DNA from: Candidatus Soleaferrea massiliensis AP7
GTDB taxonomy: Bacteria > Bacillota > Clostridia > Oscillospirales > Ruminococcaceae
Direction of reading: 5' to 3'
Assembly: GCF_000820765.1 (NCBI RefSeq)
Contig: NZ_CCYH01000027.1
Coordinates: 1-64,000, forward strand
Length of the DNA stretch: 64,000 nucleotides
The position numbers and the translations under genes are program-made. The notes beneath the pieces are model-generated. The model had not been told where the DNA came from, did no database searches, and worked only from the letters and a program-made list of their open reading frames with translations. Positions 16,744 to 25,012 of this stretch are shown here, piece after piece (position 1 is the stretch's first letter; the number at the start of each line of letters is the position of its first letter).

Positions 16744-16774
16744 TTGACTTGGAGTTAAGTCCAGGTGTTATGCT
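16744..16774 (+). promoter_or_regulatory. MerR-type promoter with 19-base spacer and operator
   Basis: TTGACT (16744-16749) and TATGCT (16769-16774) are separated by 19 bases, the over-long spacing typical of MerR-activated promoters. The spacer holds the imperfect dyad CTTGGAG-TTAA-GTCCAGG (16748-16765), the 7-N4-7 layout of AdhR-type operators. An AdhR-like MerR gene is encoded at 21727. Confidence 0.65.
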
Positions 16775-16807
16775 GTTTACACAACAGGGAAACAGCATAA
16801 CACCTGG
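16761..16807. repeat. 18-base perfect inverted repeat overlapping the MerR-type promoter
   Basis: CCAGGTGTTATGCTGTTT (16761-16778) is repeated in reverse complement at 16790-16807 with an 11-base loop. It places a mirrored copy of the operator half-site and -10 downstream of the promoter. Confidence 0.8.
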
Positions 16808-16931
16808 AAAGAGGGAATACGATGCGGCCAGGGCGGGTTGGATAGGACGCTCCAGTGAAAAAGCGGGGCCGTCGCCTGTTGAAGATATGAGATTAAAAAA
16901 CGATCACAAGACAAGAAGAGGAGGACATTGC

Positions 16932-17462
16932 TTGAAGAATATACTTGTTTTATCCGGAAGTCCCCGAAAGGGCGGCAATTCCGATATACTCTGCGACCAG
17001 TTTATCAAAGGTGCGGATGAAGCCGGAAATGTGACGGAGAAGATCTATGTACGGGAACAGGATATCGGCTATTGTACAGCCTGCGACGCCTGCAGAAATC
17101 GCGGCGCGTGTGTGCAGAGGGACGATATGTCCGCAATTCTTGACAAAATGGTAGAAGCGGATGTCATTGTAATGGCGACGCCGGTATATTTTTATTCCAT
17201 GGATGCCCAGATGAAGACACTGATTGACCGTACGCTTCCGCGATACACCGAAATCGAGGATAAGGATTTTTACTTCATAGCGGCTGCGGCTGCGGGAAAG
17301 GCGGCGATGGAGCGGACGATAGACGGTTTTCAGGGGTTCACAGACTGTCTGCCCGGCGCAAAGGTAAAGGGCGTCGTTTATGGTTCAGGGGCTTGGCAGA
17401 AAGGGGATATCCGGCGCAGCAAAGCGATGGAGGAAGCATATCGGATGGGAAAAGGAGCATAG
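16932..17462 (+). CDS. Flavodoxin-fold NAD(P)H-dependent reductase with cysteine cluster
   Basis: A 176-aa flavoprotein of the NADPH-dependent FMN reductase/iron-sulfur flavoprotein group. The FMN phosphate loop is GSPRKGGNSD (9-18). Then come cysteines C48, C51, C54 and C60 in the segment CTACDACRNRGAC, a spacing that could hold an Fe-S cluster or act in thiol chemistry. The second flavin contact MATPVYFYSMDAQMKTLIDR is clear. The start is a TTG at 16932, six bases after GAGGAGGA (16918-16925); the frame is open 285 bases upstream but that part is non-coding leader. The leader of about 150 bases carries the MerR-type promoter. It probably reduces quinones or electrophiles (inference). Confidence 0.85.
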   Translation: MKNILVLSGSPRKGGNSDILCDQFIKGADEAGNVTEKIYVREQDIGYCTACDACRNRGACVQRDDMSAILDKMVEADVIVMATPVYFYSMDAQMKTLIDRTLPRYTEIEDKDFYFIAAAAAGKAAMERTIDGFQGFTDCLPGAKVKGVVYGSGAWQKGDIRRSKAMEEAYRMGKGA

Positions 17463-17845
17463 TACGCCCCGTGTTCGCCAATTCCGCGATGGAATTGCCT
17501 TTAAACCCAGCGGCTGAAAAAACTGATCCGAAATGCCGCCGGGACATCCGGACGGCATGGACAGGATCAGAATCTAAACAACGGAAACCTTCTTTCAATA
17601 TAAAGACAATATGGGGGATTCTATATGCTGTATCATCCTTCAAAGGAGACATACAGGACCTGTCTTTGGATTTCACATGCACTGCGGTGCCTGTCGTTCC
17701 ATCCTGAGAACGGCTATGAAAAGATCGGCTTTCAGAATGACGAAGATTTGTGGTCCCAGGTATTTCTTCTGGTCGGCAACGGTTATCTGGTGCGGTAAAC
17801 CGGCATTCCTGTTATATAGCGGCTGTGTTCGCTGTATATCTGTTT
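17463..17845. other. Intergenic stretch with a possible gene remnant
   Basis: No supported gene. A 57-codon frame at 17625-17798 (ending LLVGNGYLVR) has a protein-like second half with FHPENGYEKIGFQNDEDLW, reminiscent of an acetyltransferase tail. It has no ribosome site and is far too short; it may be a fragment of a deleted gene. Confidence 0.35.
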
Positions 17846-17985
17846 ATGAACCTGACGTTCTGCAGTGAGCATGTCCATTGATGAACCTGACGTTCTGCAG
17901 TGAGCATGTCCATTGATGAACCTGACATTCTGCAGTGAACGCATCCATGGAGGAACTTGACATGCTGCGGCGAGCGTGTCGATGA
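17846..17985. repeat. Four tandem copies of a 35-base repeat
   Basis: Units at 17846-17880, 17881-17915, 17916-17950 and 17951-17985. The first two are identical (beginning ATGAACCTGACGTTCTGCAG), the third differs at a few bases and the fourth is more diverged. The decay runs left to right. No protein is encoded across it on the plus strand. The remaining bases to 18259 show only a weak promoter-like pair (TTAGAC...TATCAT, about 18126-18158). Confidence 0.85.
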
Positions 17986-18259
17986 GAACCCGGCGAAACG
18001 GGTCTTGGATATGCCAGACAAGACAGGTACATATCCACGGATCGACTTCTGCGCCGGACGCCGAAGATAAAAATCAGCGGACAAGATACGTACATATTCA
18101 CGAATTGATCGATCTGCGGGCGGATGTTAGACTTTTCCCGGGGAATATGGTATCATCATGATGACTGGCCGGATGCGCATGCGTCATATGAACAGATGAA
18201 GAGATGCATGGGCGTCATGCGTATCTATCTTGTATAGAAAACAGAAAGGGGAGAACGCA

Positions 18260-19417
18260 ATGAAGTATCGAACACTTGGACGGACGGGCCTGCAGGTCAG
18301 CGAAATCGGATTGGGCTGCGAAGGCTTTTCCGGCCGGGATGAGACGTTTACGAAAGAAATGTTTGGCCTTGCTTTGGAACACGGCGTCAATTGTATGGAT
18401 CTGTACAGCCCGGACCCGGAGATGCGCAGCCGAATCGGAAGGATGCTGCGGGGAAAAAGGGAATCGTTCGTCATGCAGGCACATCTGTGCACCGTCTGGA
18501 AGGACGGGCAGTACCAGCGCACCCGGGATATGGAAGAGGTCAAAGCCTCCTTTGAGGACCTGCTTACAAGGCTGCAGACCGATTATATCGATATCGGCAT
18601 GATCCATTATGTGGATTCCGTCGATGAATGGAAGGAAATTGCGGATGGGGAGGTCATGCAGTATGCCTTCCGGCTCAAGGCGGAAGGCAGGATTCGGCAT
18701 GTCGGTATCAGCAGCCACAATCCGGCTGCGGCGCTGGCGGCGGTCGGAAGCGGGCTGGTCGATGTGCTGATGTTCAGCGTGAATCCCTGCTACGACCTGC
18801 TGCCGCCCGATGAGAACTGTGAGTCATTGTGGCTGGAAAGCAGCTATGAAAAGCCGCTTCTGAATATGGACCCGGACCGTGAAAAGCTGTATGAAACCTG
18901 CCAGCGGCTCGGCGTGGGCATCACGGTCATGAAGGCGTTTGGCGGCGGGGACCTGCTGAGCCCCCATTCCCCCGCCGGAATGGCGCTGACGGTCAACCAG
19001 TGCATCCACTATGCCCTGACGCGTCCGGCGGTGGCTTCGGTGATGTCCGGTGTCCGGTCCGCCGAAGAGCTGCAGGCGAACCTCGATTACGAAACCGCAT
19101 CGGACAGCGAGCGGGACTATGCGTCCGCCTTCGCTGCCCTTCCAAAAATCAGCTGGCAGGGGCACTGCATGTACTGCGGCCACTGCGCGCCCTGCCCGCA
19201 GGGCATCGATGTGGCGACGGTGACTAAGTTCCTGAACCTTTCGAAGGCGCAGGGAGCGGTTCCGGAAACGGTCCGGGAACACTATGCCGCCCTTGCGCAT
19301 ACGGCGGACGCCTGTATACAATGCGGCGCGTGTGAAAGCCGCTGCCCGTTCGGTGTGCCGATCCGGGAAAATATGAAGGAAGCCGCCGCCTTATTTACGG
19401 GATCATCCGCCAAGTGA
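18260..19417 (+). CDS. Aldo/keto reductase with C-terminal ferredoxin-type 2[4Fe-4S] domain
   Basis: A 385-aa cytoplasmic oxidoreductase. Residues 1-290 are an aldo/keto reductase barrel (MKYRTLGRTGLQVSEIGLG at the start; RIRHVGISSHN; MSGVRSAEELQ in the cofactor region). Two cysteine sets follow: CMYCGHCAPCPQG (from about 303) and CIQCGACESRCPFG (from about 352), predicting two [4Fe-4S] clusters. The usual catalytic tyrosine region reads MDLYSPDPE, so the Tyr position should be checked against the family. AAGGGGAG six bases before the ATG at 18260 fixes the start. Such ferredoxin-fused enzymes probably exchange electrons with ferredoxin rather than using NADPH alone (inference). A terminator follows. 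Confidence 0.9.
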   Translation: MKYRTLGRTGLQVSEIGLGCEGFSGRDETFTKEMFGLALEHGVNCMDLYSPDPEMRSRIGRMLRGKRESFVMQAHLCTVWKDGQYQRTRDMEEVKASFEDLLTRLQTDYIDIGMIHYVDSVDEWKEIADGEVMQYAFRLKAEGRIRHVGISSHNPAAALAAVGSGLVDVLMFSVNPCYDLLPPDENCESLWLESSYEKPLLNMDPDREKLYETCQRLGVGITVMKAFGGGDLLSPHSPAGMALTVNQCIHYALTRPAVASVMSGVRSAEELQANLDYETASDSERDYASAFAALPKISWQGHCMYCGHCAPCPQGIDVATVTKFLNLSKAQGAVPETVREHYAALAHTADACIQCGACESRCPFGVPIRENMKEAAALFTGSSAK

Positions 19418-19448
19418 AGCGGATGCCGCAGTGCTGCCATCTGCCCCC

Positions 19449-19489
19449 ACCGGCGCATCAATGATTGCGAAGCTCTTTGCGCCGGTTTT
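19449..19489 (+). terminator. Terminator after the first aldo/keto reductase
   Basis: ACCGGCGCA (19449-19457) pairs with TGCGCCGGT (19478-19486), followed by TTT. Confidence 0.65.
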
Positions 19490-19570
19490 CAGGGAAGACA
19501 ATTTAACAGCGCGCTTCGCAACTCCGGTGATATCGGACGAAACATGATAAATTGATGGAGGAATATTTGT

Positions 19571-20125
19571 ATGTCAACAATTGCATTGAAAAGAACAGCA
19601 ATCAGGAATAAGTCTATCATGACAGTGCTGACGGTCGTGGCGGCCATCGTGCTGCCGCAGGTCTTTCACGCGGTCGGAATGGTCTCCGGCACCGGCGCCA
19701 TGCTCGGCTCGGCCTTTCTGCCGATGCACCTGCCGGTGCTGCTGGCGGGACTGATGGGCGGCCCGGCCGTCGGCGTCATTGCCGGCGCTCTCAGCCCGGT
19801 GATCAGCGCCGGCATTTCCGGCATGCCCGCCGCCGCGGTGCTGCCGTTCATGGTGATTGAGCTTGCCGGATACGGACTGGTCGGCGGGTTCCTGGCAAAA
19901 ACCAAGCTGCCGGTTTTCGCCAAATTGGTGCTGACGCAGGCCGCAGGCAGGGCACTCAGAGCCGCCGCCGTGCTTATCGCGGTCTACGGGCTAGGCAGCC
20001 AGGCGGTCCAGGCGGTGCAGATCTGGAACATGGTGACCACGGGACTTCCCGGCATCCTGCTGCAGTGGGCGCTGATCCCGCTTCTGATTTACCGCATAGA
20101 GGGGATGAAAAAGCGTCATGACTGA
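19571..20125 (+). CDS. ECF transporter S component
   Basis: A 184-aa integral membrane protein with about five or six hydrophobic helices and the Gly/Ala/Pro-rich composition of substrate-binding S components (FLPMHLPVLLAGLMGGPAVGVIAGALSPVISAGISGMPA). S components capture vitamins or metal chelates and use a shared EcfAA'T energy module, not encoded here. The substrate cannot be inferred; no riboswitch is seen in the 150-base leader. GGAGGAA lies eight bases before the ATG. The end overlaps the next start by eight bases, so it is translated together with the DUF1893 gene. Confidence 0.8.
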   Translation: MSTIALKRTAIRNKSIMTVLTVVAAIVLPQVFHAVGMVSGTGAMLGSAFLPMHLPVLLAGLMGGPAVGVIAGALSPVISAGISGMPAAAVLPFMVIELAGYGLVGGFLAKTKLPVFAKLVLTQAAGRALRAAAVLIAVYGLGSQAVQAVQIWNMVTTGLPGILLQWALIPLLIYRIEGMKKRHD

Positions 20126-20552
20126 TTGGGAACGCGCGAGGAACCTTTTAAAGGATGGAAGCTATACCTGCGTCCTGTGCAGGGGAGAGGTCCTGCACAC
20201 CAGCACCAAGCGCGGCGTTGCGCCCCTGGTGGATTGGATCGATCTGGGCGCCGACCTGCACGGCTGCTCTGCCGCGGATAAGATTGTGGGCAAGGCGGCG
20301 GCGCTGCTCTTTGTGCTGGCGGGCGTCAAAGCCGTGTATGCGCCGGTCATGAGCCGGGAGGCCACACAGGTGTTTTCCCGGTACGGCATCCTTTACGAAT
20401 GCGACACAACCTGCGAAGGAATCATCAACCGGCTTGGAACGGGATCCTGCCCGATGGAACAGGCCGTTCGGGATATCGAGGAGCCGATGAAGGCTCTGGA
20501 GGCTGTCCGACGCACCATGGAGCAGCTCAGAAGCAAACAGGAAGGAAAGTGA
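20118..20552 (+). CDS. DUF1893 family protein
   Basis: A 144-aa soluble protein of the DUF1893 family, which has a cytidine-deaminase-like fold (family knowledge). The body is [28 protein letters not shown], then [31 protein letters not shown]. Cysteines at about 18, 21 and 50 lie near the expected pocket, but the HAE and PCxxC zinc motifs of true deaminases are missing. The C-terminal 35 residues form a charged helix. It overlaps the ECF S-component gene by eight bases and is seven bases before the second aldo/keto reductase, so a functional link with them is likely although its reaction is unknown. Confidence 0.82.
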
Positions 20553-20559
20553 AACGAAT

Positions 20560-21684
20560 ATGAAGAAATTGGGATTCGGCCTGATGCGCCTGCCGCTCAT
20601 CGATGAAAACGATCCGGCAAGCGTGGACATGGACCAGACCATACAGATGGTGGACACCTTTCTGAAACGCGGATTCACCTATTTTGACACGGCATATATG
20701 TATCACAACTTCAAAAGCGAGACGGCGGCCCGCGAAGCGCTGGTGAAGCGGCATCCGCGGGACAGCTTTACGCTGACCTCCAAGCTGCCGACAATGTTTT
20801 TGAAGACCAAAGAGGATATGGCGCGGATTTTTGACGAACAGCTGGAAAAGTGCGGCGTCGATTATTTCGACTACTATCTTCTGCACAATTTGAATATCTC
20901 ACATTATGCGGTCGCGCAGAAGCTGGGCTGCTTTGATTTTATCCAGCGCAAGAAGCGGGAGGGGAAGATCAGGCGGATCGGATTTTCCTATCACGACAAC
21001 GCGCAGCTGCTGGATGAAATCCTGTGCGCGCATCCGGAAGTGGATGTGGTTCAGCTCCAGCTCAACTACCTGGACTGGGACGATCCGAGCATCCAGTCCC
21101 GTAAATGCTACGAGGTGGCGAGAAAGCACGGCAAAGAGGTCATCGTCATGGAACCGGTTAAAGGCGGAACGCTGGCCAAGGTGCCGCCGCAGGCCGAAAA
21201 GCTCTTCAAAGAGTATGCGCCCGGCCGGTCCGCCGCATCCTGGGCGGTCCGCTTCGCGGCAAGTCATGACGGCATCCTGACGGTACTCAGCGGCATGAGC
21301 AGCATGGAGCAGCTCGAGGACAACACCGGCTATATGCAGGATTTTATCCCGCTCAGCGAGGAAGAACGCGCCGTTGTCAGAAGGACGGTGGAAATTATCA
21401 ACGATTCCATCACAGTGCCCTGCACCGCCTGCGGCTACTGCGTCGAGGGCTGTCCCAAACGCATTCCGATCCCGCAGTATTTCGCGCTGTACAATGCGGA
21501 GAAGCAGGCGGGAAGCAAGGGATTTTCCCTCCAGCAGGCTTATTATGAAAACTATACGCACACCCACGGCAAAGCATCCGACTGCATTGCCTGCCGGCAG
21601 TGCGAACGCCAGTGTCCGCAGCATATTGCCATCATAGACGGGCTCAAGGCGGTCGCGGATGCCTTTGAAGAGGATATGCAGTAG
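20560..21684 (+). CDS. Aldo/keto reductase with ferredoxin-type domain (second copy)
   Basis: A 374-aa enzyme of the same architecture as the protein at 18260 but of a different subgroup. The barrel shows [27 protein letters not shown] (with the Tyr and Asp of the active site), [11 protein letters not shown] and EPVKGG. The ferredoxin part carries [18 protein letters not shown] (from about 287) and [15 protein letters not shown] (from about 342). This is the widespread clostridial 'predicted oxidoreductase of the aldo/keto reductase family' type. It is in an operon with the ECF S component and DUF1893 genes upstream and the MerR regulator 42 bases downstream. The substrate is unknown; aldehyde or quinone reduction is likely. 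Confidence 0.92.
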
Positions 21685-21726
21685 GAATTTGTTATAGATA
21701 GAAGAATGAAAAGGGGAGGTCATTCC

Positions 21727-22119
21727 ATGACCATCGCAGAGGTAAGCAAACGGTTTGGGCTGACAGCGGATACGCTGCGTTACTACGAGCGCATCGGGCT
21801 GATTCCGGCGGTGCCGCGCACATCGGGCGGCATCCGCAGCTATACGGAGGAGGACTGCAACTGGATCAACTTTGCGAAATGCATGCGGGGCGCCGGCCTG
21901 CAGGTGGAGGCACTCATCGAATATGTTGCGTTATTCCAGAAGGGCGATTCCACCCGGGAAGCCAGAAAGCAGATTTTGATCGAGCAGCGCGACCAGCTCC
22001 GCGAACGGGTTGAACAGATGCAGCAGACGCTGAAGCGCCTGGACGGAAAGATTGAAGGGTATGAACAGTGGATTGCATCGTCCGATGAAAAGCTGCGCTC
22101 TTCCCAGAGTAAGCAATGA
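21727..22119 (+). CDS. MerR family regulator, AdhR type
   Basis: A 130-aa activator. Residues 1-70 are the winged helix-turn-helix (MTIAEVSKRFGLTADTLRYYERIGL) and 80-120 a dimerising coiled coil. Cysteine 52 lies in NFAKCMRGAGL, exactly the position of the single redox/aldehyde-reactive Cys of Bacillus AdhR; there is another Cys at 44, and no metal-binding C-terminal cluster. It is thus expected to sense electrophiles such as aldehydes or quinones. GGGGAGGT before 21727 decides the start. It is the last gene after the second aldo/keto reductase; its likely target includes the promoter at 16744. Confidence 0.9.
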   Translation: MTIAEVSKRFGLTADTLRYYERIGLIPAVPRTSGGIRSYTEEDCNWINFAKCMRGAGLQVEALIEYVALFQKGDSTREARKQILIEQRDQLRERVEQMQQTLKRLDGKIEGYEQWIASSDEKLRSSQSKQ

Positions 22120-22169: not shown

Positions 22170-22550
22170 AGATGATGGCTCATCCTGCAAAGCGTATAAA
22201 CGCCGGATGGTTCGGTCGGTTCCGTATATGCTGTGTATTCCTCCCTAAGAATACACGGCATATGCTGATGTTCGGGATTTGTTTAAACATAAAGACGATG
22301 GTTTAATCTGTAAAGCGGATAACCATCAAACTGCTTAATTGTTCGGTCGGTTCCATATAGGTCTTTACTTTCCCGCAACAATATACGACATATGCCGGCG
22401 TGCAGGAATTGTTCTGCATATGAAGATGATGGTTCATCCTGCAAAGCGGATAAGTTTAAAACAACCCAGCCTGTACCTGATCGGCTTTTCACTTTCCTAT
22501 GGAGAATACACGGCATATATAGGCTTTCATAAATTGTTCTGCATAAATTG
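22170..22550. repeat. Three degenerate tandem copies of a roughly 127-base repeat
   Basis: Copies begin at about 22170, 22293 and 22424. Shared landmarks in order are GATGGTTCATCCTGCAAAGC (with changes), GGTTCGGTCGGTTCC or a derivative, GAATACACGGCATAT and, in the last two copies, AATTGTTCTGCATA. Divergence is about one base in four. No frame is conserved between copies. It fills the whole gap between the MerR gene and the DUF1905 gene. Confidence 0.65.
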
Positions 22551-22606
22551 TGCCGGTCCTGATTGAATGGATGCCAGTTGGGCAATCTAATGCCGGAGGT
22601 GTTTCT

Positions 22607-22882
22607 ATGAATCCAAAGGTCTACGAGTTTGAGACGACCATCTACAAGGTTCCGGAAATCGACGGCGCATATGTGGAGTTCCCCTATGATGTGCGGGAAG
22701 AGTTCGGCAAAGGGCGTGTGCGGGTATCCGCGACGTTTGACGGCGTATCCTATGAGGGCAGCCTGGTGCGGATGAAAACGAAGCTTCACATCCTGGGCCT
22801 GCGCAAGGATATCCGGGAGCAAATTGGAAAAGGACCCGGCGATACGGTGAAGGTTACCATTCGTGAAAAAACCGAACATTAA
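22607..22882 (+). CDS. DUF1905 domain protein
   Basis: A 91-aa small beta-rich protein: [43 protein letters not shown], then the ending [15 protein letters not shown], which is the DUF1905 pattern. These proteins are widespread and often fused or adjacent to YdeI/OmpD-associated domains; the function is unknown. GGAGGT at 22595-22600 sets the start at 22607. It is monocistronic and followed at once by a terminator. Confidence 0.82.
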
Positions 22883-22928
22883 AAGCGTACTGCCGCACAG
22901 AAAAAAATGATGCGGCAGTACGCTTTTT
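22881..22928 (+). terminator. Terminator after the DUF1905 gene
   Basis: AAAAGCGTACTGCCGCA (22881-22897) pairs with TGCGGCAGTACGCTTTTT (22911-22928). Confidence 0.9.
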
Positions 22929-22978
22929 ATGTTATAATAAGAGCCAAATATCTTGGAACCGTGAAGGAGGATGCCTGT

Positions 22979-24496
22979 ATGAACCAGGAACTGCGCAGCC
23001 GGCTGGACAGCTGGCATGAACAGGATCAATATGAATCCATCGTAAAGACCATCAGGGAAATCCCGGAAGAGGAACGGGATTATGAGATGACCGGGCATCT
23101 GGCGCGGGCGCTCAACAACCTTTCGGAATATGAGGAAGCCGCGGCGCTGCTGCTCTCGGTTCAGGAAGCGGGGAAGGATGATCCGCTCTGGCATTTTCGC
23201 CTTGGATACGCCTATTATTATCTGGACCGCGAAGAGGAAGCCGCCCGGGAATTTGAACGCACACTGGAATTGGATGCGTCGGATGAGGATGCGCGCGAGA
23301 TGCTCGATTGGTGCAGGGAGGAATTGGAAGAGCACACATCCCGTCCCCTCGAACTCTATGAGGAAGAGGAAATCCGTGCTGTCGAAGCGCACATTGAACG
23401 CCACTTTGGAACGTTCGAAAGCGTCTTTCACGAACTGGCGTCGCCGGATATCCATGTCGATCTCGCCGTCATCCAGCCGGATGAAAAACGCGATTACATC
23501 ACGCTGGTCACCATGGGGATGGGCGCGCACCGCATGTCGGTGCCGGACGCGCTGTCCGAAGCCGGTTTTGACCGTGCGGAACTGCTCATCTGCCTGCCGA
23601 AGGACTGGGACCTGCGGAATCACGATGAAAAATGGTACTGGCCGCTGCGCTGGCTGAAGATACTGGCACGGCTGCCCGGCGATGAGGACACCTGGCTGGG
23701 ATGGGGGCACACGGTGGAGAACGGCGGGCCGTTTGCAGAAAACACGGATCTGGCCGGTGTTCTGCTGACAAACCCGTTTGCGCCGTTAAGCCCCGCTGAT
23801 GCGCAGGTTCCGGACCGCGAAGCAGCGGTCTGTACGCTGCCAGGCGGCGAAAAGGTACGGTTTTACCAGGTGATTCCGCTCTATCAGGAAGAGATGGATT
23901 ACAAGATTGCCAGCGATACCGAAAGCATTCTGGAGCGGTTTGGAGAGACGCTTTCCCCGGTACTGAATATCGGCCGGCCGTGTGTCTGCCGCACCTGCGA
24001 ACTGGAGGCCGGCGATTTCAAGAACAGCGCGTATGCTTCCTGTGAAACGGCCGTCACCCTGTGGCATCAGCCCGATGTGACGCTCAGCATCGATTTTCCC
24101 GCCGAGGAGGACAGGGAGACCTGTTTAAGACAGTACCTGCCCGTCCTGCGGGAGCGGGTTGCATGGCTGCAGGACAGCCGCACAGCCATTGTAAAGGCTT
24201 TGCTGGACGAAAATATGCTTTCATTGGCGGAGGATTGGGCCAGCAGTGCAGAGGAAGCCGAGGATGAGGAGCAGGAGTGCTATATCATGGAGGATGGGGA
24301 AAAGGTGTTCCTGCCCATCACACAGGAGAATTTCTGTGACAGTCTGCGGTTTGAGGGAATTCACATCGATTTTCCGGGAGAACTGCCGGAAATGGAATTG
24401 TACCTCTACTGTTCCCCGGATTACTTTGCCGGCCACTGCATCTGGGTTTCCATCGATGAAGCGGGACAGATTACCTGCAATGGACTGGCAGGATAA
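22979..24496 (+). CDS. TPR protein with Suppressor-of-fused-like domain
   Basis: A 505-aa acidic cytoplasmic protein in three parts. Residues 10-115 are tetratricopeptide-like (LARALNNLSEYEEAAALLLS, then LGYAYYYLDREEEAAREFERTLELD). Residues about 130-330 match the bacterial Suppressor-of-fused fold (IERHFGTFESVFHELASPDIHVDLAVIQP; TLVTMGMGAHRMSVP; LLICLPKDWDL). Residues 340-505 are an unassigned C-terminal domain with several Cys and the end DYFAGHCIWVSIDEAGQITC. Bacterial SUFU proteins are frequent immunity proteins of polymorphic toxin systems (family knowledge), but no toxin gene is visible here. AAGGAGG eight bases upstream fixes the ATG at 22979. Confidence 0.82.
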   Translation: MNQELRSRLDSWHEQDQYESIVKTIREIPEEERDYEMTGHLARALNNLSEYEEAAALLLSVQEAGKDDPLWHFRLGYAYYYLDREEEAAREFERTLELDASDEDAREMLDWCREELEEHTSRPLELYEEEEIRAVEAHIERHFGTFESVFHELASPDIHVDLAVIQPDEKRDYITLVTMGMGAHRMSVPDALSEAGFDRAELLICLPKDWDLRNHDEKWYWPLRWLKILARLPGDEDTWLGWGHTVENGGPFAENTDLAGVLLTNPFAPLSPADAQVPDREAAVCTLPGGEKVRFYQVIPLYQEEMDYKIASDTESILERFGETLSPVLNIGRPCVCRTCELEAGDFKNSAYASCETAVTLWHQPDVTLSIDFPAEEDRETCLRQYLPVLRERVAWLQDSRTAIVKALLDENMLSLAEDWASSAEEAEDEEQECYIMEDGEKVFLPITQENFCDSLRFEGIHIDFPGELPEMELYLYCSPDYFAGHCIWVSIDEAGQITCNGLAG

Positions 24497-24574: not shown

Positions 24575-25012
24575 ATGAATCAATGGAACAAGATGGATCC
24601 GTCACAGTGTCCGGATATGGAAACGATCAGCCGCAGCGTGGACAACAAGCTGTGGGAGGACCTGTGCGGGTATCTGCATATACAATACCAGGCAAAACCG
24701 CTGATTTCATACAGCCGGTGTGCCAGTATGCCGGGATGGAATGTAAAATACCGCAAAGCGGGCCGCGGCCTGTGTACGTTGTATCCGTCTCAGGGGACCT
24801 TTACCGTGCTTGTCGTGATAGGAGACCGCGAGCGCGGGGAAGCAGAGCTTATACTCCCATCATGTACGCCGTACCTGCAGCGGCTGTACCATGATACCGC
24901 AGAGGGCATGGGTCAAAAATGGCTGATGATCGATGTAAAGGACGAACAAATTCTTACCGATGTGAAGAAAATGATTGCAGTTCGCAGAGAACCGGGAAGC
25001 CGGAAAAAGTAA
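24575..25012 (+). CDS. DUF3788 family protein
   Basis: A 145-aa soluble protein: WEDLCGYLHIQYQAKPLISYSRCASMPGWNVKYRKAGRGLCTLYPSQG shows the DUF3788 pattern (a YSxC...PGWNVKYRK core), and KWLMIDVKDEQILTDVKKMI ends it. The family is related in shape to DUF1801/YdhG-like proteins; the function is unknown. AGGAGAGGAG lies before the ATG. It starts 79 bases after the SUFU-like gene, perhaps in one transcript. The gene belongs to a run of mobile-looking accessory genes (22607-27486). Confidence 0.75.
   Translation: MNQWNKMDPSQCPDMETISRSVDNKLWEDLCGYLHIQYQAKPLISYSRCASMPGWNVKYRKAGRGLCTLYPSQGTFTVLVVIGDRERGEAELILPSCTPYLQRLYHDTAEGMGQKWLMIDVKDEQILTDVKKMIAVRREPGSRKK

Follow-up and report, generated by a model that had tools for sequence, protein, structure and literature searches.

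A stretch of 64,000 nucleotides from Candidatus Soleaferrea massiliensis AP7 (contig NZ_CCYH01000027.1, positions 1 to 64,000; the whole stretch is called the window) carries on its forward strand, at 16932-22119, six genes which an earlier note made from the letters alone had described as an electrophile and redox island. All six genes were found at this location. The first encodes a flavodoxin-like NADPH-dependent flavin mononucleotide (FMN) reductase (16932..17462; PF03358, 81.7 bits), with initiation at a TTG start downstream of AAGAGGAGG. It is followed by a ferredoxin-type aldo/keto reductase (AKR) with a non-canonical active site, AKR1 (18257..19417; PF00248, 71.3 bits, and Fer4), by the S component, the membrane substrate-binding subunit, of an energy-coupling factor (ECF) transporter (19571..20125; PF12822, 24.5 bits, below the cut-off of 30.7, the assignment drawing on the predicted fold), by a member of the DUF1893 or TM1506 family (20118..20552; PF08973, 147.4 bits, cut-off 27), by the canonical ferredoxin-type AKR2 (20560..21684; PF00248, 166.7 bits, and Fer4 domains) and by an NmlR/AdhR-like MerR regulator (21706..22119; NF041849, the NmlR model, 147.8 bits, below the cut-off of 175). 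The PF00248 and Fer4 matches in AKR1 and AKR2 bear out the two ferredoxin-fused reductases of the earlier note, and the proposed translational overlap of S component and DUF1893 is observed as 8 nucleotides shared by the two reading frames.

Upstream of the FMN reductase lies a MerR-type promoter/operator, TTGACTTGGAGTTAAGTCCAGGTGTTATGCT (16744..16774, + strand), with the −35 element TTGACT, a 19-bp spacer containing a dyad and the −10 element TATGCT, and its −10 region is overlapped by an inverted repeat (16759..16809) that is nearly perfect and whose arms span about 19-20 bp. The gap of 794 bp between the FMN reductase and AKR1 holds a 35-bp tandem repeat in 3.9 copies (17846-17980). The arrangement in the window exceeds chance, because in the organism's own genome of 3.1 Mb AKR2 has two matches at E<=1e-10, which are AKR2 itself and the neighbouring AKR1, and DUF1893 is present in one copy.

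Linkage and fusion of the gene set across genomes

DUF1893 neighbourhoods were compared at 167 loci, which comprise the window, 80 database loci (chosen out of 541 matches as those most similar to the family of the window), 40 loci of the same order, 40 of the phylum and 6 spirochaete regions. The order sample takes 40 of 48 non-own genomes with DUF1893 and the phylum sample 40 of 48 further genomes, with mostly weaker-scoring ones dropped, and the spirochaete regions take 6 of 10 matches, two more such genomes (L032, L048) being counted among the database loci. Distinct sequences were obtained for 164 of the 167 loci, three locus pairs being identical. As first-pass profiles took in fusion proteins, some AKR genes were labelled DUF1893; the final counts were therefore made with profiles rebuilt from the DUF1893 alignment and from S components of 150-210 amino acids, an AKR being a homologue of more than 60 bits and more than 250 amino acids whose cluster cysteines were checked separately.

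An S component is adjacent to DUF1893, with a gap below 150 bp, or fused to it at 54 of the 80 database loci, a linkage count biased upward by the way in which these loci were chosen, and at 19 of 40 order, 8 of 40 phylum and 1 of 6 spirochaete loci. An AKR homologue lies within 900 bp of DUF1893 or is fused to it at 47, 19, 3 and none of the loci in the same four samples, and both partners are linked at 34, 14, 3 and none. In 74 of 77 unfused neighbouring pairs the frames of S component and DUF1893 overlap, the overlap lengths being upper bounds because starts were set at the first start codon. With the first-pass profile (116 loci), the S component takes gene offset −1 from DUF1893 in 62 cases and −2 in one, and AKR2 offsets −2 (27), −1 (16) and +1 (15), with at most two cases at any other offset. 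Among 90 further neighbouring proteins analysed with Pfam, the repeated families are few (cupin 6, DUF362 3, ArsP_1 2) and do not form a clear metabolic theme. Outside the order the core linkage is uncommon, with an S component at 8 of 40 phylum loci. Of the 295 genomes of the order, 189 have an S-component match at E<=0.001, compared with 49 for DUF1893.

The same partners are also joined within single reading frames. S component and DUF1893 are fused in L142, L202, L203 and L205 and, in reverse order, in L235, and DUF1893 is fused to an AKR with its ferredoxin domain (AKR-Fd) in L129, L143 and L147, the sequence of L147 being identical to L082. Pfam finds both domains in L142, L202, L129 and L143; in L235 DUF1893 is above cut-off and the S component, at 28.5 bits, slightly below the 30.7 required. 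In three spirochaete genomes (L167, L168, L169) DUF1893 precedes an ATP-binding cassette (ABC) ATPase in one frame, followed by an ABC-type permease, and the Pfam-scanned L167 has an ABC-3 permease and a Vut_1 transporter next to the fusion and a nucleoside phosphorylase upstream. This predicted DUF1893-ABC ATPase fusion is a second tie to transport. That DUF1893 is fused to two types of transporter, and in either order, suggests that it acts at the transporter in such cases. A frame of 860 amino acids (L119:6980-9559) has an N-terminal DUF1893 and about 700 remaining residues without a Pfam match at E 0.001; lacking a second Pfam domain, it was left out of the fusion list.

The other members of the island behave differently from the core. 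A homologue of the FMN reductase lies within 4 kb of DUF1893 at 7 of the 167 loci, 4 of them on the same strand. For MerR, homologues up to 2.5 kb away were likewise counted at 7 loci, again with 4 on the same strand; a narrower count of same-strand homologues above 60 bits gives 2 and 4 loci, respectively. AKR1-type genes are near DUF1893 at few loci, the alignment of this type having 7 rows with the window included. DUF1893 is not generally accompanied by FMN reductase, AKR1 or MerR, and the six-gene island as a unit, as the earlier note had it, is not supported. For the core the outcome is the opposite: unlinked genes in relatives, which the note had named as what would speak against it, were not what was found, as S component and AKR are each linked to DUF1893 in 19 of 40 order loci and linkage recurs within the order together with fusions.

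S component, DUF1893 and ferredoxin-type AKR are, on comparison of their sequences, shown to be a recurrent gene set with overlapping frames and fusions of either neighbouring pair, and this is good evidence for what would be a joint function. Alternatively, the neighbourhood might be without shared function, common anaerobic genes having come under one stress promoter, with no link in function between the reductases and the S component-DUF1893 pair. The rarity of FMN reductase, AKR1 and MerR as companions would be expected from such an assembly, as would the sister S components that stand with AKR genes in L280 and L281 without DUF1893. The DUF1893-AKR-Fd fusions and the sharp offsets of the AKR genes are, however, hard to reconcile with it, as is the finding that AKR2 is without a match at E<=1e-10 outside the cluster in its own genome, so that this explanation appears very improbable.

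Predicted properties of the transporter subunit, DUF1893 and the reductases

The S component of the window remains below the PF12822 cut-off, yet fused relatives reach 54.4 and 61.2 bits and 55 of 57 rows of the S-component alignment, the window included, match the family at E<=0.01. Its predicted model has a predicted local distance difference test score (pLDDT) of 95.1, and S components, whose fold has about six membrane helices, or their metal homologues take the first 20 places of a VIA-align comparison, with Z from 14.7 to 9.9 over 148-172 aligned residues and a root mean square deviation (rmsd) of 2.9-4.5; MreD comes next (Z 9.2), then another S component (8.7) and Lnt (7.7). The assignment as ECF S component is made secure by the PF12822 matches of the relatives together with the predicted fold. 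EcfT is encoded elsewhere in the own genome (contig C44, E 2.5e-51). No vitamin or other S-component model matched the window protein at cut-off; weak matches among the 57 rows are to the riboflavin S family PF07155 (6 of 57) and the folate-family model TIGR04518 (28 of 57).

Sister S components of the order, which score 138-167 bits against the family profile, adjoin other enzymes. In L280 the sister S component overlaps a gene of the AKR1 type, RnfC and probably RnfD following downstream, and in L281 it stands beside an AKR2 identified by eye. A neighbouring DUF362 iron-sulfur protein is seen in L276, L278 and L282; L276 and L278 also have a P-loop (AAA_33) kinase, L278 and L282 an F420-ligase-like gene nearby (Pfam on L278, the others by eye). 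L283, L284 and L285 pair the sister S component with a small S-adenosylmethionine methyltransferase (Pfam on L284 and L285, L283 by eye), and L284 combines it also with EcfT and two ABC ATPases, the latter recognised by eye.

The predicted model of DUF1893 (pLDDT 96.6) aligns with the TM1506 structure 1vk9 over 134 residues (Z 19.8, rmsd 1.9); the first structure of this family was solved in 2004. AICAR transformylase, dCMP deaminase and similar proteins follow at Z 8 to 10, a likeness limited to residues 1-116. Members of the zinc-dependent cytidine deaminase superfamily carry the zinc motif PCxxC, which was found in none of 26 aligned DUF1893 sequences. According to the model, DUF1893 is a deaminase-like fold without the zinc motif. 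Across 167 aligned rows D54 is kept in 166, which makes it the most widely kept of the polar residues checked, C111 in 162, E114 in 160, P112 in 159 and R105 in 151. In several distant genomes (L223, L231, L233, L165, L166) a RadA-like gene, recognised by eye, lies one to three genes from DUF1893.

In a review (PMC8946771), TM1506 is stated to undergo auto-ADP-ribosylation on aspartate, and a search of the literature on DUF1893/TM1506 found nothing beyond this statement. DUF1893 might accordingly be a domain with a regulatory or NAD-consuming (ADP-ribosylating) role which governs the activity of transporters and reductase rather than an enzyme acting on an imported compound. Such a role would fit the preservation of D54 in 166 of 167 rows and the three different fusion partners, S component, ABC ATPase and AKR. 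On the other hand, it draws on a single passage of that review, the neighbourhood shows no recognised ADP-ribosyl hydrolase or target, a dedicated search for one not having been made, and the conservation of C111, P112 and E114 (162, 159 and 160 of 167) suggests a fuller site, these residues being absent from spirochaete forms. A purely regulatory DUF1893 is consequently held to be distinctly unlikely.

The catalytic tetrad of AKR2 is complete (D43-Y48-K75-H109) and eight cluster cysteines are present; of 71 AKR2-type rows, 68 have the full D-Y-K-H tetrad and 70 the complete set of eight cysteines. AKR1 is without this tetrad, the corresponding positions reading D, gap, H and H, and 6 of the 7 AKR1-type rows, the window included, share this reading; the seventh (L235) has an ordinary tetrad and no clusters. 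AKR1 belongs to a small paralogous group, in which D-gap-H-H, being conserved, looks like a different site and not like decay.

Promoter, regulator and predicted regulon

Activators of the MerR family act on promoters with a spacer of 19-20 bp that contains a dyad. The promoter before the FMN reductase, with TTGACT and TATGCT 19 bp apart and a dyad in between, conforms to this pattern. A consensus search with four substitutions allowed gave nine pattern matches in 2.2 Mb, which are eight sites, as one dyad was matched on both strands; seven of these lie directly upstream of DUF1893 operons and the eighth is that of the window, upstream of the FMN reductase. The same pattern had no site in 1.37 Mb of shuffled DNA. 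A weight matrix built from the eight sites recovered five more loci at a score of at least 20 among 159 non-training loci, compared with none among 167 reversed and none among 144 downstream segments; in L049, L062 and L125 the sites are directly before the S component, in L040 and L041 1.2-2.2 kb away. A minority of DUF1893 operons is shown by these searches to have a predicted MerR-type promoter with a 19-bp spacer; promoter and operon are present in Papillibacter cinnamivorans and Christensenella (L031, L052), among others. The search of the literature for the promoter sequence together with MerR found no paper.

With up to three mismatches, three promoter sites occur in the own 3.1-Mb genome and none with the reversed pattern. 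The first is the site of the window. The second precedes an iron-containing alcohol dehydrogenase (Fe-ADH) by about 120 bp, the best NCBIfam model of this enzyme being PRK15138 at 268 of 645 bits, well below cut-off, and the third precedes a cupin by about 190 bp. A cupin of the same kind adjoins DUF1893 in L038, L039, L040 and L115 (Pfam on L039 and L115), and L038-L040 have the order DUF1893, cupin and an opposite-strand MerR gene of 70-72 bits. The inverted repeat at 16759-16809 has no second full-length match in the own genome, the match on C28 spanning the promoter part alone.

The probable start of the MerR protein is its second methionine at 21727, where three related MerR proteins begin. 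Counted from there it has two cysteines, Cys44 and Cys52, and not the single Cys52 previously ascribed to it. A cysteine at position 52 is present in all four MerR proteins, those of the window and the three relatives, and for the four same-strand MerR proteins NmlR is the best NCBIfam model with 147.8, 127.6, 131.2 and 126.8 bits, all below the cut-off of 175. AdhR-type regulation is supported by the retained Cys52 in four of four proteins and by the MerR-type promoter with its 19-bp spacer upstream of some DUF1893 operons. In PMC4776306, AdhR of Bacillus subtilis is described as turning on adhA, yraC and yraA in response to methylglyoxal or formaldehyde and as needing Cys52, along with a role of Cys52/54 in NmlR/AdhR regulators.

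A regulon of the aldehyde or electrophile type is likely from these sequence features, and such a signal is the best guess because of the Cys52 MerR protein, the promoter, the sites before Fe-ADH and cupin and the likeness to AdhR; for electrophile-type regulation of the module itself the predicted sites and regulator provide moderate evidence. The same regulator and promoter type, as well as Fe-ADH and cupin in the predicted regulon, would equally be found in an operon for pure electrophile defence, in which the reductases detoxify aldehydes or quinones, the S component imports a known vitamin for them, for example a flavin or nicotinate-type precursor, and DUF1893 is an accessory binding protein. 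The weak S-component matches to PF07155 (6 of 57) and TIGR04518 (28 of 57) would point to such a vitamin. The S component is, however, fused to DUF1893 and not to a cofactor enzyme, no vitamin riboswitch was found at 20 loci and no S-component model reaches cut-off for the window protein, and pure defence is considered a somewhat unlikely explanation. Beyond the regulator the window continues with DUF1905 (22550-22882), a tetratricopeptide repeat (TPR) protein with SUFU and DUF2262 (22907-24496) and then DUF3788 (24575-25012).

Proposed mechanism and comparison with known systems

An electrophile-inducible uptake-and-processing module is the preferred reading of the locus and stands about an even chance of being correct. 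The NmlR/AdhR-like regulator would sense a reactive carbonyl or similar electrophile through cysteine 52 and switch on the promoter at 16744 and with it the FMN reductase, perhaps onward through AKR1, S component, DUF1893, AKR2 and merR; the two other sites of the own genome, before Fe-ADH and cupin, would be switched on as well. Using a presumed shared EcfT/EcfA core encoded elsewhere, the S component would import a small vitamin-like or aromatic molecule, which DUF1893, tethered to the S component on the cytosolic side, would receive and probably modify. AKR2 would use NAD(P)H to reduce a carbonyl and would be connected to the ferredoxin pool by its two 4Fe-4S clusters. Recurrence of the wider S-component family with cytosolic enzymes, several of them iron-sulfur enzymes, fits import followed by processing. 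The suggestion of the earlier note that a single compound is taken up and then reduced goes beyond the evidence, in which nothing names a substrate; transport and reduction of one compound is plausible.

A number of observations weigh against an uptake-and-processing module. Besides the upward bias of the database count, DUF1893 occurs without an S component at 26 of the 80 database loci, in the order at 21 of 40, in the phylum at 32 of 40 and in the spirochaetes at 5 of 6, and such frequent loci suggest a wider role of DUF1893; conversely, this type of S component is not exclusive to DUF1893, because the sisters adjoin other enzymes. The spirochaete forms L165-L169 are without the C111-P112-E114 stretch. 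Equally, MerR homologues near DUF1893 are scarce, the promoter is found in about 13 of the 167 loci, most DUF1893 operons being without a recognisable site, and one transcript from 16744 is uncertain because of the 794-bp gap with its tandem repeat. Foldseek ranks S components first for the S-component model, yet with a best E of 0.025 and none below 0.001, and no riboswitch or RNA hint to a substrate was found in the window and, among 20 loci, just a tRNA.

A bolder version of the module would be a new kind of importer, in which DUF1893 is the dedicated cytosolic receiver of the S component, captures the molecule on its near-invariant aspartate and hands it to a ferredoxin-driven AKR, amounting to an electrophile-induced, membrane-coupled reductive pathway of salvage or defence. 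Taken as a whole such an importer is unlikely; within it, the aspartate might possibly capture the molecule through an N-ribosyl transfer, a reaction related to the claimed ADP-ribosylation of TM1506.

The module is real, conserved and made of known parts, and literature searches found no paper on it. This applies to the pairing or fusion of an S component with DUF1893 or a deaminase fold, to AKR with a ferredoxin domain and 4Fe-4S, and to keto reductase with DUF362, for each of which no paper was found, and to ECF S component with AKR, for which no related paper was found. In gut-type Clostridia its parts recur as neighbours and are at times fused, in the window near a promoter of the type that aldehyde-sensing regulators use, which points to an undescribed system. 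The module gives DUF1893 and an S-component family without a named substrate a testable context consisting of partners, fusions, a predicted inducer class and a promoter, and the substrate, if found, would define a further pathway of gut anaerobes in which reduction is coupled to transport.

Known systems resemble the module in its single parts. With the S components RibU, ThiT, PanT, FolT and BioY the window protein shares the predicted fold, the superfamily model PF12822, which it matches below cut-off, and an EcfT encoded elsewhere in its genome; it differs in belonging to no named substrate family at cut-off and in overlapping or being fused with DUF1893. The solved TM1506/DUF1893 members 1vk9 and 9e9a, the latter from Borrelia burgdorferi, belong to the same family, the fold match having been measured against 1vk9, and were deposited as single proteins, whereas DUF1893 of the window is part of a transporter-reductase module. 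Among aldo/keto reductases with a C-terminal dicluster ferredoxin domain AKR2 has its counterpart in tetrad and eight cysteines, in contrast to AKR1, which is without the tyrosine and lysine; PDB matches at the thresholds used are single-domain AKR chains only, which cover the AKR part. The NmlR/AdhR regulon of B. subtilis and relatives, as described in PMC4776306, is approached by NmlR as the best model, by Cys52 and by an alcohol dehydrogenase among the predicted targets. In contrast to that regulon, the regulator of the window belongs to a group scoring 126.8-147.8 bits, below 175, the predicted alcohol dehydrogenase is of the iron type, and the predicted targets add ferredoxin-type AKRs, an ECF S component, DUF1893 and a cupin.

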